From positions 4,554,267 through 4,618,266 of the forward strand of contig NZ_CP030287.1 in NCBI RefSeq assembly GCF_003287935.1: 64,000 nt of DNA, in the 5' to 3' direction. Position 1 is the stretch's first letter. Each line of letters opens with the position of its first letter. The stretch is from Streptomyces sp. ICC1 (GTDB taxonomy: Bacteria; Actinomycetota; Actinomycetes; Streptomycetales; Streptomycetaceae). The translations under genes were made by a program, and so were the position numbers. Of this stretch, positions 58,660-63,988 are shown piece by piece. The notes under the pieces are model-generated. The model made no database searches and was not told where the DNA came from. It worked only from the letters and a program-made list of their open reading frames with translations.

Positions 58660-58679
58660 ACTCACGGGTGGGAGACCTC

Positions 58680-59465
58680 ATGTTCGTCATCACGGGTGCG
58701 ACCGGAAACGTCGGCGGCGAGCTGGTACGGATCCTCGCGGCGGCGGGGGAGCCGGTCACGGCCGTCTCCCGCCGGGCGCCGGAGCACGCGCTGCCCGAGG
58801 GCGTCCGCCACCACCGCGCCGACCTCGCCGAGCCGCAGAGCCTGCGGCCCGCCCTCGACGGGGCCGAGGCCCTGTTCCTGCTCGTCGCCGGCGAGGACCC
58901 GCGGGCGGTCCTGGAGCTGGCCGCGGCGGGCGGCGTACGCAGGGTCGTGCTGCTGTCCTCGCAGGGGGTCGGGACCCGGCCCGAGCAGTACCGGCACCCC
59001 GCGGCCTTCGAGGAGGCCGTCCGCCGGTCGGGCCTGGAGTGGACGGTCCTGCGCTCGGGCGGGCTCGACTCCAACGCCTTCGCCTGGGCCGAGTCGATCC
59101 GCGCCCACCGCACGGCGGCCGCGCCCTTCGGGGACGTCGGCCTGCCGGTGGTCGACCCGGCGGACGTGGCCGAGGTCGCGGCGGCGGTGCTGCGGAGCGG
59201 GGCCGGGGGGGGGAGATCGGCGGCGGGTTGGTGGGGTTTTGCTGGATCGTGGTGCTCCGTGTGGTGCGGCAGGCACCCCGGCCCGGATGAGGCGGGCCGG
59301 GGCGGCGTGAGGGAAGTGGTCAGCGAGACCGCGAAGGGGATCCGGGCGATGCCGGCGGAGTCGCAGCGGGAGCCTGGCCGCCCGTGGCCTTGGCCTGCTG
59401 GGCGCGGTGCGCGGCCATTGTCTGTGCCCAGGCGGTCACGTCGTACAGGCCCGGGTCGATGTTGA
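58680..59465 (+). pseudogene. NmrA-like NAD(P)H-binding oxidoreductase, C-terminus lost
   Basis: Residues 1-172 are a good NmrA/NAD(P)H-binding reductase: MFVITGATGNVGGELVRILAAAGEPVTAVSRR, VVLLSSQGVGT, RRSGLEWTVLRSGGLDSN and VVDPADVAEVAAAVLR. The usual C-terminal 80-100 residues are absent. After VLRSGAG the frame enters a run of nine G at 59204-59212 and then unrelated, Trp/Gly-rich sequence up to a stop at 59465. No other frame restores homology, so this is a truncation, not a simple frameshift. The break coincides with the edge of the mobile-element-like operon. ATG 58680 follows GGGAG; regulation is by the divergent TetR. Confidence 0.75.
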
Positions 59466-59730
59466 CGTCGTAGTTGGCGATGAGCAGCGGGAGCGCCGCA
59501 CGGGTGACGAGCTGCTTCTGGGCCTTCTCGCTCAGGCCGTCGGGGGTTTCGTGCCAGACGTAGACGGGGCCTGTGGTCTCATCGGTGCGGCGCTCCAGGC
59601 CGGCACTGTCGAGGATGGCAAGGAGTTCTTCCGGTGCGTTGCTGCGGCTGACGATGTGGATGCTGCCGGGAGTGCGGGCCTGTCGGTAGATCTCGACGTC
59701 TTTGCCGGTTTCGTCGGCCAGATTTCCCAC
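59320..59730 (-). CDS. Family A protein, short copy (A1), function unknown
   Basis: A 136-residue protein, last of the leftward operon. The GTG at 59730 has an AGGAGATCCCCC ribosome site. Residues 20-90 (SIHIVSRSNAPEELLAILDSAGLERRTDE ... YVWHETPDGLSEKAQKQLVTRAALPLLIANYDVNIDPGL) align with the N-terminal half of A2 (60548) and A3 (61965). The shared pattern is PEA/PEE--ILxxxGf, Y-x-x-P--L--E-Q---T-AA--L--a-Y-V--DP. It lacks the C-terminal helical half of A2/A3 and ends in a Pro/Ser/Ala-rich tail. No TM or catalytic motif is seen. Confidence 0.75.
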   Translation of the reverse strand: MGNLADETGKDVEIYRQARTPGSIHIVSRSNAPEELLAILDSAGLERRTDETTGPVYVWHETPDGLSEKAQKQLVTRAALPLLIANYDVNIDPGLYDVTAWAQTMAAHRAQQAKATGGQAPAATPPASPGSPSRSR

Positions 59731-59758
59731 GGGGGATCTCCTCGCGGTGGTGGGTGGA

Positions 59759-60517
59759 TCAGCGGGTCGCAGATGCGACCGCCGGGCAGGGCGGGCGAGC
59801 GGGCAGCGCGGTGGGCGCGGAAGCCAGCCGGGCCGGGCGCATGGTGACGCCGACGCCGATACGGGCCAGTCGCTGGGAGACGGCCTGGACGCGGGCGATC
59901 TGCTCGCGGTCGCCGTACGACGCCGGAAGGAGGAACTGCCGGTGGTAGGGGTGGTACTGGAATCCGGCGCCGTACAGGACCACGGTTGCCTCACGCACTC
60001 CGGTGACGGCGCCGACGGCCCCGTCCGGGTGCCAGACCATGCTCACCGCCCCGGTGATCAGGGCAGGTTCGGGCCGGCGGGGTGCGGGATGGGCGGTGTT
60101 GTGCCGGACCTGGCGCAGCGCATCCTCGTAGCGGGGCAGCAGCCTGCGGGTGACCTGGGCGGCGGCGCGGGCGGGGTCGGAGGGGACGGTGATGCCGTTG
60201 GGTTCGGCGACCTGGTGGAAGGCGTCGTGATGGGCGTCCGGTTCCAGTGCGCCGATCATGAACTGGTGCCGGTACCGGGGGCGATCGAAGAGCAGCAGGC
60301 GTGCTCCGTCGGCTCGGGCGAGCACGGCCTGGTGGCCGAGGACGAAGTTGGAGGTGGCGTAGCCGACGGCTCCCATGTCCCACACCGTCGAGGTGGTGGC
60401 GATCTGGTCGTGGTAGGCGGCGTGGCGGGTGTAAGTGCTGGTCCAGGTCTCGGGCAGGCGGGCGGCGAGGCCTTCTGCGAAGGCCGCGAGATCGGTTCGA
60501 TGGTGTCGTGGAGGCAT
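59759..60517 (-). CDS. Family B protein, copy 1 (B1), function unknown
   Basis: A 252-residue paralogue of the protein at 61186. Shared blocks are LPxTWTxxxxxH (RLPETWTSTYTRH), STVWDMGAV, RLLLFDRPRYRHQFMIGAL, EPNGITVPSDP and RLLPRYEDALRQV. A separable C-terminal domain (residues 175-235: VSMVWHPDGAVGAVTG, GFQYHPYHRQFLLP, RLARIGVGVTMRP) follows. It has no signal, TM helix or known enzyme motif. The tail is Pro/Ala-rich, as in the other operon members. It starts 30 nt after the A2 stop and ends 28 nt before A1, the same spacing as the other A-B junction. Confidence 0.78.
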   Translation of the reverse strand: MPPRHHRTDLAAFAEGLAARLPETWTSTYTRHAAYHDQIATTSTVWDMGAVGYATSNFVLGHQAVLARADGARLLLFDRPRYRHQFMIGALEPDAHHDAFHQVAEPNGITVPSDPARAAAQVTRRLLPRYEDALRQVRHNTAHPAPRRPEPALITGAVSMVWHPDGAVGAVTGVREATVVLYGAGFQYHPYHRQFLLPASYGDREQIARVQAVSQRLARIGVGVTMRPARLASAPTALPARPPCPAVASATR

Positions 60518-60547
60518 GGACCGTTTCGGAGGCGGAGTGCGGCGGGT

Positions 60548-61189
60548 TCAGCGTCCCCGGGTGGGCGGCGACGCCGCTGGACCTGGAGGTGCAGGCGGTT
60601 GCGGGGAGACCGGCTTGGCGGCGGCGGCCTGATTGCGGATGTGCCGGATCTCGCCGCCGTGTCGCGAGAGCCCGCTGGTGGTGTCCATCAGCCGCATCGC
60701 GAGGTCCTCCTTGGACAGTGCGCCCTCAGTGCGCTGGCTCCAGGTGGCCCAGGTCGTGATCAGGGTCTGCACCAGGTGGGACAGCAGGCCCTCGGTGGGT
60801 GCGGCCACTTCGGCGAGGATCTCGGCGACCTGCTTGTCGTCGGTGGCCCTGCTGGCCCGCTCGGCGAGCTGGTCCAGGTAGCGGTGGGCCGCTGCCCGGT
60901 CGCCGTCAGGGGTGGCGAGCGTGTTCAGGGAGGGATCCAGGAAGACGCTGAACCCTGAGAGCAGGAGAGCCTGGGCCGCGGCGGTCGCGTAGTGGCGCTG
61001 CTGTTCGACGGGCAGGTCGTGCGGCTGGCGCAGGTAGTGGACGCCGCCGTCGCGGAAGCGTCCGACGGTCTCCAGGATGCCCGCGGCTTCTGGTGTGCAT
61101 CTGCTGGTCACCACCAGCTGGGTGCGTGGGTCGCGGGTGATCGTGACGTAATCGAGGATGAGGAAGTCGGGCTCTGCGCCGTCCTTCAC
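60548..61189 (-). CDS. Family A protein, copy 2 (A2), function unknown
   Basis: A 213-residue protein. The GTG at 61189 overlaps the B2 stop (GTGA). The N-terminal half (LDYVTITRDPRTQLVVTSRCTPEAAGILETVGRFRD ... HYLRQPHDLPVEQQRHYATAAAQALLLSGFSVFLDPSL) aligns with A1 and A3. The C-terminal half is helical (DQLAERASRATDDKQVAEILAEVAAPTEGLLSHLVQTLITTWATW ... MRLMDTTSGLSRHGGEIRHIRNQ) and aligns with A3. It ends in a Pro/Ala tail. A longer frame to 61327 exists but lies inside B2. No known domain is recognised. Confidence 0.78.
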   Translation of the reverse strand: MKDGAEPDFLILDYVTITRDPRTQLVVTSRCTPEAAGILETVGRFRDGGVHYLRQPHDLPVEQQRHYATAAAQALLLSGFSVFLDPSLNTLATPDGDRAAAHRYLDQLAERASRATDDKQVAEILAEVAAPTEGLLSHLVQTLITTWATWSQRTEGALSKEDLAMRLMDTTSGLSRHGGEIRHIRNQAAAAKPVSPQPPAPPGPAASPPTRGR

Positions 61190-61938
61190 CGGGATCGCAC
61201 GGTGTTCGCCGTGGCCGGGCGCGGTGCGGGCAGCGGCGTCGTTGCCGGAGTGCCCCGGTGGGGCGCGCTGCGCAGGGTCACACCGATGTTCAGGGCGCCG
61301 AGCGCGGCGCCGGCCGCCCGTACGCACTGTGCCTGGTGAGCCGTGTCGTCGCCGGAGGCGACGTACGCCTGCTGGCCGGGGTCGTGGACGAACCCGTGGG
61401 CTGTCAGGACGCCGGCCACGTCCGCCCGGTCGGTGGTGGCGGTGAGGTCGCCGGATTCCGTCCAGCTCATCACCAGGGTGTCGGGCTGGGAGTGGGCGCG
61501 GTTCAGGCGCAGGGCGTTGTCCTGGACCTGGGCCAGCGCGGCCTCGTATCGGGGCAGGAGGTTGGTGACGATGGCGTCGGTGGCCTGCTCGGGGTCGGCG
61601 GGTATCGCGATGCCGTCCGGCTCCCGCACCCCGCGGAATGCTTCCGCGGGGGTGTCGACGGGTGCCATGGCGGCTATGAGGAACTCGTCCTCGTAGCGGG
61701 GATGGTCAAGGAGGAAGAGCCGCCGGCCATCGTCGCGGGTCAGGATGACGTCGTGCTTCACCGGGTGCTGGGCGAGAGCTTCGGCGACGTGGTTCAGGTC
61801 CCAGACGTCGGCGGTGGCGCTGTGGCGCTCGTCGTGGGCGGTGTGCTGGCGCAGCTCATGGGTCCAGGTGCCGGGCAGGTTCTGGGTGAGGATGGCGGCG
61901 AAGGAGCCGAGCTCGTCGGGGTCGCGGTCGTAGGGCAT
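61186..61938 (-). CDS. Family B protein, copy 2 (B2), function unknown
   Basis: A 250-residue paralogue of B1. The ATG at 61938 follows GAGGAACC. Conserved blocks are NLPGTWTHELRQH, ATADVWDLNHV, RRLFLLDHPRYEDEFLIAAMAP, REPDGIAIPADPEQATDAIVTNLLPRYEAALAQVQDNALR. The C-terminal domain (LVMSWTESGDLTATTDRADVAGVLTAHGFVHDPGQQAYVASGDDTAHQAQCVRAAGAALGALNIGVTLR) matches that of B1. It starts 26 nt after the A3 stop and overlaps the A2 start by 4 bp. Cytoplasmic, with no catalytic motif visible. Confidence 0.78.
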   Translation of the reverse strand: MPYDRDPDELGSFAAILTQNLPGTWTHELRQHTAHDERHSATADVWDLNHVAEALAQHPVKHDVILTRDDGRRLFLLDHPRYEDEFLIAAMAPVDTPAEAFRGVREPDGIAIPADPEQATDAIVTNLLPRYEAALAQVQDNALRLNRAHSQPDTLVMSWTESGDLTATTDRADVAGVLTAHGFVHDPGQQAYVASGDDTAHQAQCVRAAGAALGALNIGVTLRSAPHRGTPATTPLPAPRPATANTVRSR

Positions 61939-61964
61939 GGTTCCTCGGGCGGGTCTCGGGGCGG

Positions 61965-62675
61965 TCAGCGGCGGCGGCCGGCCGGGGCGGGCAGAGCAGC
62001 AGCCGGTGTGACGGGCGTGGTGGGGATGCGGGCGGGCACGGGGCAGGGGCACGAGGCCGACTTCTCCCGTTCGTCGCTGGCGACTTCCTGGGGGCACGGC
62101 GCGCGGTGGGGGTGTACGGCCTGCCGGTCGGCGAGCCCGTTGCGGACGTGCCGCAGGTCAGAGGTGATGACGCGGAGCCGTTCGTCGACCAGGTAGTGCA
62201 GCCGCGCGGCGGTGTGCGGGTCGATGGGCTCCCCGAGGTCCTGCAGGAAGTCGGCCGTGGCGGCGAGGACTTCGGCGAGGGCCGGGAGGACACCGTCGTG
62301 GGTGGCGGTCAGCTCCGTCAGGGCGTCGCTGACTTCCTCGGTGGTCTCCGCTTCCCGGATCCGGGTCGCGAGGTGTGCGACCTGGGCGCCGAGAGAGAGG
62401 TAGTGCGGTTCGTGTTGCTCGGTGGCAAAGGCGGGGTCCGCGGTCAGGTCGTAGCCGACGGCTTGGAGGCGGGCTACGGCGCGGGTGGCCAGGCGGATCT
62501 CCTCTTCCTGGTCAAGGCCGGTAGGAAGACGGTGGTACGTCTCGTGGCGGCGGACGACTGGGACGAATCCGGTGCGTTCCAGGAGGCTGTGGGCTTCCGG
62601 GTCGCCCCCACGGGCGAGGACTTCCCCGGAGCCCGGATCGCGTCGGACGGTCAGTACACGGTGGGCGAGGGCCAA
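61965..62675 (-). CDS. Family A protein, copy 3 (A3), function unknown; start uncertain
   Basis: At least 236 residues from a TTG at 62675. The frame is open back to the TGA of the relaxase-like gene (62709-62711), and the extra residues TAESILFLALAH align with the start of A2. The true start may therefore be further upstream, at a rare codon. Blocks are HRVLTVRRDPGSGEVLARGGDPEAHSLLERTGF, ETYHRLPTGLDQEEEIRLATRAVARLQAVGYDLTADPAF, a helical half (GAQVAHLATRIREAETTEEVSDALTELTATHDGVLPALAEVLAATADFLQDLGE ... LRVITSDLRHVRNGLADRQ), then a tail with Cys (HRAPCPQEV, ASCPCPVP). Confidence 0.75.
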   Translation of the reverse strand: MALAHRVLTVRRDPGSGEVLARGGDPEAHSLLERTGFVPVVRRHETYHRLPTGLDQEEEIRLATRAVARLQAVGYDLTADPAFATEQHEPHYLSLGAQVAHLATRIREAETTEEVSDALTELTATHDGVLPALAEVLAATADFLQDLGEPIDPHTAARLHYLVDERLRVITSDLRHVRNGLADRQAVHPHRAPCPQEVASDEREKSASCPCPVPARIPTTPVTPAAALPAPAGRRR

Positions 62676-62708
62676 GAAGAGAATGCTTTCTGCGGTAGAG
62701 GCGGCCGG

Positions 62709-63572
62709 TCAGCGCCTCCGGGTGGCCCGGGACGGGAGCCCGGCGGAGGCACCTGTGGTGGCGACTCCGGCCGGGGTGCCAGGGTGCCCGGGGACGATCT
62801 CGGCGAGGTCGGATTCAAGGGCGTGGGATCGGCGGGCGATCCACTCCAGCTGGTGCGCGAGCTCCGGCCAGCCCGACGGCGCACTACCCAGCTGGTGCGC
62901 GGCCTTCTCCACGAGACGGCGGGCGGCGGCGAAATGCTGGTGCGCGCCGTTGGACAAGTCCGCCACGAAGTTGGTGCCGGGAATTTCGACGGTGGGCCGT
63001 GCCGCCGCCAGCATGTTCGCCTTGAAGGGGGCGGCGTGGTGGTCTGGCGGGGAGAGAAGGCGGAGGTCGGCTTCGATGCGCCGGCATTCCGCGGCCAGGG
63101 CGTGGGGGAGTTGCCTGGGCACGGGCGCCCGGACGCCGTCCTCCCGGACCAGATTGGCGACCAGGTCGAGGCGGTGGGGCAGGTCGCGGAGGGCGATCCA
63201 CCTGCACGGATTCGGGTCGCCGGGCGGGGCGATTCTTGAGACGCGGGCGAGCCGGTGGCCGACCTCGGACCATTCGGCCGGCGTGAGCTCCCGGTCCTCG
63301 GGGTGCAGGCGGACGCTGACGTGGAGGATGACGCGGGGATCACCACGGTAGGTGGCGGCGAAGGGGTGCTCCCGGTGCGATTCGTCGAGGTGCTGGGCCC
63401 ACTCCACCGAGGTCCATATCCGGTCCTCGTCGGTGAAGTAGTCGAGCTGCGACCAGTACGCGACGATCGTGCCGTCGGTGGTCAGGCCCTCCTGGTCGCT
63501 GACGGGCCGGCCCAGAGCCGCGGCGAGTGCGTGGGCGGACGTGGTGTCCAACTCGTGGAGTGTGGGGATCAT
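62709..63572 (-). CDS. Relaxase-like protein with degenerate HUH site
   Basis: A 287-residue protein that aligns by eye with the N-terminal domain of Streptomyces plasmid/ICE relaxases. It has an MIPxxH start, RVILHVSVRLHPEDRELTPAEW (residues 80-101), GDPNPCRWIALRD and LVANLVREDG (137-146). In active relaxases the segment between the last two blocks reads HADDHIHI (metal-binding HxH). Here it is LPHRLDL (131-137), so only one His remains. The expected active-site region near the N-terminus is also rearranged. It may be an inactive, repurposed relaxase. The ATG overlaps the upstream stop (ATGA), so it is coupled. Confidence 0.65.
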   Translation of the reverse strand: MIPTLHELDTTSAHALAAALGRPVSDQEGLTTDGTIVAYWSQLDYFTDEDRIWTSVEWAQHLDESHREHPFAATYRGDPRVILHVSVRLHPEDRELTPAEWSEVGHRLARVSRIAPPGDPNPCRWIALRDLPHRLDLVANLVREDGVRAPVPRQLPHALAAECRRIEADLRLLSPPDHHAAPFKANMLAAARPTVEIPGTNFVADLSNGAHQHFAAARRLVEKAAHQLGSAPSGWPELAHQLEWIARRSHALESDLAEIVPGHPGTPAGVATTGASAGLPSRATRRR

Positions 63573-63988
63573 CGGCTGCCGGCCCGGCCGTCGGCGACGT
63601 GGACGAGCTGGTTCAGTTCGGTGATCGAGTACCAGCCGACATCGACGGGCTTGCTGTCGGTGAACCGGGGCACGAGGTAGTCCTGCAGGGCCCGCTGGTA
63701 GATCAGGCAGTCGGGGCAGCGCGTGGAGAGGTGGACGAGGTAGCGGGGGTGTCCGGTGACGAAGCTGCGGGCGCCGCCGTCAGGGTTGCGCAGGCGCCAT
63801 CCGTCCTCGTTGGTCGGGGTGTGCCAGGACGGGGTGACCACCGTCATGGCGTCGCCCCACAGGATGCCGTCGTCCACTCCCTTGATGACCACGATCCGGT
63901 CGCCGGGAGCGAAGTGTCCGTGGGTGATGTCCCGGTCGGGGGTGATGGCGTCAGCGGGTATGAACGCGGCACGGATGGCGTCGGGCAC
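63569..63988 (-). CDS. Hypothetical protein with CPDC motif, first visible gene of the operon
   Basis: A 139-residue protein from a GTG at 63988 with AGGA eight bases upstream; the frame could extend past the window edge. HFAPGDRIVVIKGVDDGILWGDAMTVVTPSW resembles a small beta-barrel. RYLVHLSTRCPDCLIYQRALQDYLVPRF contains a CPDC pair that could bind metal or form a disulfide. No known family is recognised. The stop overlaps the relaxase-like start. Confidence 0.7.
   Translation of the reverse strand: MPDAIRAAFIPADAITPDRDITHGHFAPGDRIVVIKGVDDGILWGDAMTVVTPSWHTPTNEDGWRLRNPDGGARSFVTGHPRYLVHLSTRCPDCLIYQRALQDYLVPRFTDSKPVDVGWYSITELNQLVHVADGRAGSR

Follow-up and report, generated by a model that had tools for sequence, protein, structure and literature searches.

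In this study, a window of 64,000 nucleotides from Streptomyces sp. ICC1 (contig NZ_CP030287.1, positions 4,554,267 to 4,618,266) was analysed, representing 4.55–4.62 Mb of a 9.03-Mb single contig. Its right part holds one end of an array of partly paralogous genes, most of whose products end in arginine, and which continues beyond the window to the genes of a type IV secretion system (T4SS). All seven leftward genes of a preliminary description were found on the minus strand at 59320–63988, with the overlaps or 26–33-nt gaps reported there; the 4-nt overlaps were those of the CPDC and relaxase-like genes and of B2 and A2. The features are as follows, M, Bn and H being protein modules defined below.

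59320..59730, minus strand: A1, module M, Pro/Ala linker and C-terminal SPSRSR; GTG start with GAGGAG upstream.
59759..60517, minus strand: B1, Bn, M and a tail ending in SATR.
60548..61189, minus strand: A2, M, H and a tail ending in PTRGR.
61186..61938, minus strand: B2, Bn, M and a tail ending in TVRSR.
61965..62675, minus strand: A3, M, H and a tail ending in GRRR; TTG start.
62709..63572, minus strand: relaxase-like protein (the NCBI name of its relatives), without the conserved HUH motif; C-terminal ATRRR.
63569..63988, minus strand: CPDC-motif protein, C-terminal GRAGSR; its gene is a common neighbour in relatives.
59180..59210 (about 59194), no strand: break point of the element in this assembly; the element continues on the other strand at about 7641166 of the ICC1 contig (G000:C1).

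Three starts were revised from the first ATG, GTG or TTG, to an ATG for B2, a GTG overlapping the B2 stop by 4 nt for A2, and a GTG for A1. The order A-B-A-B-A given for the operon holds within the window but is incomplete as a description of its extent, since the array continues further.

BLASTP was run among the 16 array proteins of the ICC1 genome, and the E-values refer to that set. B1 and B2 aligned at 35% over 254 columns (9e-41), in agreement with the earlier claim that the B proteins are alike. The corresponding claim for the A proteins held for A2 and A3 (26%, 9e-8) and for A1 and A3 (32% over 79 columns, 7e-7) but not for A1 and A2 (E 0.93), so that A1 is tied to A3 without a direct tie to A2 by BLASTP. 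The proteins are mosaics of three modules: M, which forms the start of A and also the end of B; Bn, the start of B; and H, the end of A. Because both contain M, the A and B families are not unrelated. No database match was found for M, Bn or H, and no named family fits the seven proteins, with Pfam, NCBIfam and PADLOC yielding weak sub-threshold Pfam rows only. PDB sequences gave no match for B, A3 or the relaxase-like protein, the rows of the A3 profile being at chance level (best E 0.43). PF03771 (SPDY/DUF317) did not match A or B and was not one of the 12 families recorded for 82 B members with E up to 1. Named relatives in searches with B2 and A3 were from Streptomyces, with up to 95% identity.

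An M-H gene of type A lies directly 5′ of a Bn gene in 13 of the 15 loci holding both, and four M-Bn fusion genes were defined by profile. This arrangement is consistent with the first proposal for these genes, that A and B are hetero-complex subunits diversified by alternating duplication. Also in line with it is L005:9419-10474 of the ICC1 genome, where a Bn domain follows an A4-like start, although that start is only suggestive (BLASTP E 0.075, no M profile match). The modules, however, are often solitary (35 M, 51 H and 13 Bn genes), and pairing of subunits would leave unexplained the arginine tail common to unrelated families. As an account of the array, diversified subunits therefore seem improbable to us, while being compatible with a role as translocated cargo (see below). 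Another idea, that B proteins serve as secretion chaperones for A-type cargo, with Bn having a type III chaperone-like fold, we consider very unlikely.

Past the window, the same strand encodes a Zn-ribbon-like protein, a major facilitator superfamily (MFS) transporter, helical proteins, the Bn-domain protein with the suggestive A-like start, and more A- and B-like proteins. After the array come T4SS genes for VirB4, DUF6238-like, SCO6880-like, VirB6-like, lipoprotein-like, DUF6112-like and NlpC/P60 proteins, and near these lie a divergent DNA methylase gene and the gene of a DUF4913 protein; the labels VirB6-like, lipoprotein-like, VWA, ZN (Zn-ribbon-like) and CPDC were assigned in the present analysis. 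Plasmid p1 of S. angustmyceticus, whose T4SS is annotated, has the same gene order, and two SNU607 records match this order in part. A VirB4 ATPase with other T4SS parts, in the order of p1, thus stands beside the array, as is characteristic of a conjugative T4SS element; the VirB4 match to Pfam AAA_10 (E 0.0055) is below the cut-off of that family. In relatives, a VirD4-type coupling protein is encoded at the array end, and the array members also include SPDY/DUF317, VWA-like and Zn-ribbon-like proteins; in ICC1 the VirD4 gene is at 7645225-7647018, 3 Mb off. The MFS transporter gene (L005:6900-8159) has the ZN gene on one side and a helical gene on the other, a place taken by a VWA-like gene in L030, L032, L034 and L035. 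For the SCO6880-type protein (L005:15752-17263), Pfam lists EccE, a component of the type VII (ESX) translocon, at E 9.3e-5, but the 23.2 bits of this match fall short of the cut-off of 23.7.

Among 199 genomes of the genus, 44 contained B-like genes (E ≤ 1e-5) and 65 had an SCO6880 match (E ≤ 1e-40). For counting linkage, 66 of 79 listed T4SS rows (58 genomes) were kept and 13 weak or fragment rows were dropped. Of 96 B places, 85 were less than 50 kb from an SCO6880-type T4SS gene, all 85 of them downstream on the same strand. A linked B place was present in 36 of the 44 genomes; the remaining eight never showed linkage, two of these having a T4SS on another contig. The T4SS was found in 38 of the 44 genomes with B, compared with 20 of 155 without. 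In a first set of nine loci, T4SS or VirD4 genes were beside the array in eight, and L033, a 17.5-kb contig, held array genes only. Both ends were reached by four of these nine loci and by five of 17 further loci, the others stopping before one end, and in all nine that did so (L031, L034, L035, L038, G061, G209, G194, G063 and G088) array genes were between VirB4 and VirD4, as they likewise are in plasmid p1 (L028). The VirB4-VirD4 interval holds 5–21 called same-strand genes in the five further loci. This survey of the neighbourhoods of homologues places the array beside T4SS or VirD4 genes in relatives and bears out the link to conjugation suggested in the preliminary description.

The Pro/Ala/Ser tails noted earlier were confirmed and were observed to end in arginine; of all features examined, they give the strongest signal. 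In most array proteins, a variable Pro/Ala/Ser linker is followed by a C-terminal motif RxR, RR or RRR. Among the best 120 of 182 B hits, arginine was found at position -1 in 116 and at -3 in 110; among the best 120 of 274 A3 hits, it was found at -1 in 112 and at -2 in 113. Within the C-terminal region, conservation is highest at the arginine ends, most linker positions having an entropy of about 2–3 bits. The arginine codons vary (CGC 37, CGG 32, CGA 20, CGT 3 and AGA 1), indicating that the amino acid itself is kept. Overlapping start codons were checked as a cause of the arginine ends and do not account for the tail.

In ICC1, 13 of 16 array proteins were Arg-terminal compared with 42 of 361 chromosomal genes (nominal Fisher 1.4e-9), and two or more arginines were among the last three residues in 10 of 16 and 14 of 361, respectively; the chromosomal set comprised the genes called in 20 chromosomal stretches and in positions 1–58700 of the window. 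Since this set had given rise to the idea of a tail, other loci were used for testing it. In the first relatives (13 loci, gene classes by profile), 80 of 109 cargo-class proteins were Arg-terminal against 6 of 50 machinery proteins, and 56 of 109 against 3 of 50 had two or more arginines in the last three. In the 17 further loci, where position and strand served to define cargo, counting from SCO6880/VirB4 as far as VirD4 or the limit of the retrieved sequence, the values were 206 of 293 against 11 of 66 and 157 of 293 against 1 of 66, and genes on the opposite strand inside the interval were Arg-terminal in 2 of 17 cases. By class, Arg-terminal proteins made up 18/19 of SPDY, 16/17 of Bn+M, 15/15 of H+M, 7/8 of M+H, 27/34 of M, 28/34 of H, 5/5 of VWA, 14/15 of CPDC, 13/17 of ZN and 5/12 of relaxase-like proteins with H. 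The last 15 residues contained neither aspartate nor glutamate in 67% of cargo proteins, compared with 14% of chromosomal and 9% of machinery ones, and the mean net charge of the last 25 residues was +2.47 (293 cargo proteins), +1.06 (machinery) and +0.12 (chromosomal). The AlphaFold2 model of B2 had a mean predicted local distance difference test (pLDDT) score of 87.8 and about 55 in the tail. Charge counts and model thus both point to the charged, flexible C terminus of VirB/D4-type substrates. In stretches of two other actinobacterial T4SS plasmids the tail was lacking: Arg-terminal genes numbered 3 of 31 in one and 2 of 20 in the other.

In Agrobacterium, Arg-rich C-terminal peptides mark T4SS proteins for translocation (PMC3937733; Vergunst 2005 as cited there and in PMC11288057), and conjugation machines deliver proteins, some via C-terminal signals (PMC11288057). 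Because of this precedent, and because a charged, conserved end that is common to unrelated proteins, rare in the machinery and near VirD4 is what would be expected of a T4SS substrate signal, we propose that these genes make up one end of a cargo array carried by an integrative conjugative element (ICE) with an actinobacterial T4SS, the arginine tail being a predicted C-terminal recognition signal for secretion. Our confidence in this is evenly balanced. Array position, M homology in A and B, and conservation of the tail and its rarity in machinery were observed directly; to these the proposal adds recognition, translocation and a role in the recipient. VirD4, whose gene lies at the opposite end of the array, would recognise the tail and hand the tailed proteins to the T4SS; these would enter the recipient hypha together with the DNA and help the element establish there, and A may be transferred or act together with B. 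More tentatively, Streptomyces T4SS elements might each inject into recipient hyphae some five to twenty or more proteins, most with one portable arginine tag (linker plus RxR/RR), and M, Bn, H and SPDY/DUF317 would be delivered proteins within these elements. If so, a Gram-positive conjugation machine would have a large tagged effector or establishment repertoire, much of it readable from sequence alone; conjugation in mycelial Actinobacteria would bring many proteins along with DNA, and SPDY/DUF317 would gain a testable role.

The same position and tail evidence also fits proteins that stay in the donor as conjugation accessory factors (DNA processing, mating-site assembly or recruitment), the tail being a docking or nucleic-acid-binding motif (e.g. 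for VirD4, VirB4 or DNA) without export, and assembly or adaptor functions are conceivable for the neighbouring relaxase-like and VWA-like proteins. However, numerous diverged paralogues, and mosaics exchanged from one element to another, are seen more typically in cargo than in components of a machine, and the tail is rare in machinery, as the counts of 3/50 and 1/66 given above indicate; retention in the donor is rather unlikely in our judgement. Paired genes on a mobile element might further suggest cargo for toxin-immunity or anti-phage defence; defence was among the roles named in the preliminary description. None of eight proteins matched a PADLOC model at E up to 1, which does not support defence, and no toxin family was seen among the weak Pfam rows, leaving this explanation with hardly any probability.

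Several observations weigh against tagged cargo. The loci are related and the rows not independent, so that the Fisher values overstate significance. Arginine ends also occur outside the VirB4-VirD4 interval, in 15/29 genes after VirD4 and, for G061 only, in 11/20 before the T4SS, and the tail is therefore a mark of the element's accessory genes in general rather than of the interval alone. Within the interval, 87 of 293 genes are not Arg-terminal. The proportion is just 35 of 88 for unassigned genes, some of which may be false gene calls, 11 of 16 for Bn without detected M, and just 43 of 72 for the relaxase-like family. ZN and CPDC proteins have a single terminal arginine without a Pro-rich linker, while two VirB4 and some DUF6238 genes are Arg-terminal as well. 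The comparison with Agrobacterium VirB/D4 substrates covers a positively charged flexible C terminus on unrelated proteins and a link to a T4SS with VirD4. Finally, the ICC1 copy may be dead, with VirD4 lying 3 Mb away.

T4SS-based ICEs of Actinobacteria are already known (17 putative; PMC3218068), ICEs and defective ICEs occur in Streptomyces (PMC9513070), and T4SS-like genes have been described for SLP2 and cmdABCDEF (SCO4126-4131; PMC2782261). The present element resembles these ICEs and the SLP2 cmd genes in its VirB4-like ATPase, SCO6880 family protein, NlpC/P60 peptidase and VirD4-type coupling protein. Plasmid pSGE has SCO6880, VirB4 and VirD4 adjacent without an array, in contrast to the 5–21 called same-strand genes between VirB4 and VirD4 in the five loci above. 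Neither the array nor the arginine tail is mentioned in the available portions of these three papers, and no description of array or tag was found in the accessible T4SS and Streptomyces literature, which is weak evidence of absence as most subscription journals were outside the search. Unlike the Agrobacterium substrates, the array proteins, as putative substrates, carry a Pro/Ala/Ser linker followed by arginine at -1 and -2/-3, and have many paralogous modules and a Gram-positive mycelial host. SPDY/DUF317 (PF03771) proteins are array neighbours in relatives, encoded next to H proteins and sharing the tail, whereas A and B form separate families without a PF03771 match. No paper was found naming DUF317 with Streptomyces, 'SPDY domain', 'SPDY motif' or PF03771, with the same limit on subscription journals.

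In ICC1, the array stops after A1, and the next part (H, SPDY, H, SPDY, SPDY, a 194-aa protein, VirD4 and more) is at 7.641–7.650 Mb on the other strand. The VirD4/SPDY half (L127) is thus about 3.03 Mb away, the break falling between A1 and the H gene that would follow. In relative G061, a single contiguous stretch of 1.3 kb corresponds to both sides of the break (87.7% and 92.8%, with a 15-bp overlap); therefore, the ICC1 copy has been split by rearrangement, or the assembly is wrong there. A gene at 58668, which we take to be NmrA-like, seems cut at the same point as the element. In a search for att sites, no repeat of 13 or more bases was shared between the two flanks examined in ICC1, a split copy.

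For the protein at 62709–63572, the name relaxase-like agrees with the names that many relatives have at NCBI, but the histidines expected of an HUH motif lack conservation. In its conserved segment x-R-L-D-L-x-A-N-L, R134 and D136 were each present in 72 of 73 sequences and H133 in just 17 of 73, the place of the HUH motif being our assumption based on relaxase sequences. An active relaxase is therefore unlikely; the protein is perhaps a pseudo-relaxase adaptor, with arginine and aspartate where the histidines would be expected. Matches to the TrwC (MOBF) relaxase were found in 5 of 10 genomes, none within 100 kb on the contig of the array, some contigs being short and the search covering this relaxase class only.

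Beside the DUF4913 gene at the right end (G000:C1, about 4634900-4635400) is a reading frame that is presumably RelE-like, and similar genes occur in the elements of relatives (L028:30797 and L102:2761). A second common C-terminal motif, roughly (Q/D)DDF(G/A/V)LxA, is found at the end of VirD4, of DNA methylases and of further proteins from these elements; carriers include the methylase L006:3234-4244, VirD4 genes, and genes in L094 (ends 13502 and 14779), L096 (17118) and L098 (14533), one carrier being, we assume, PAPS-reductase-like. When searched with a loose pattern, the motif turned up in 8 of the 425 genes from the validation loci, five being VirD4 genes, and in 1 of 361 chromosomal genes.

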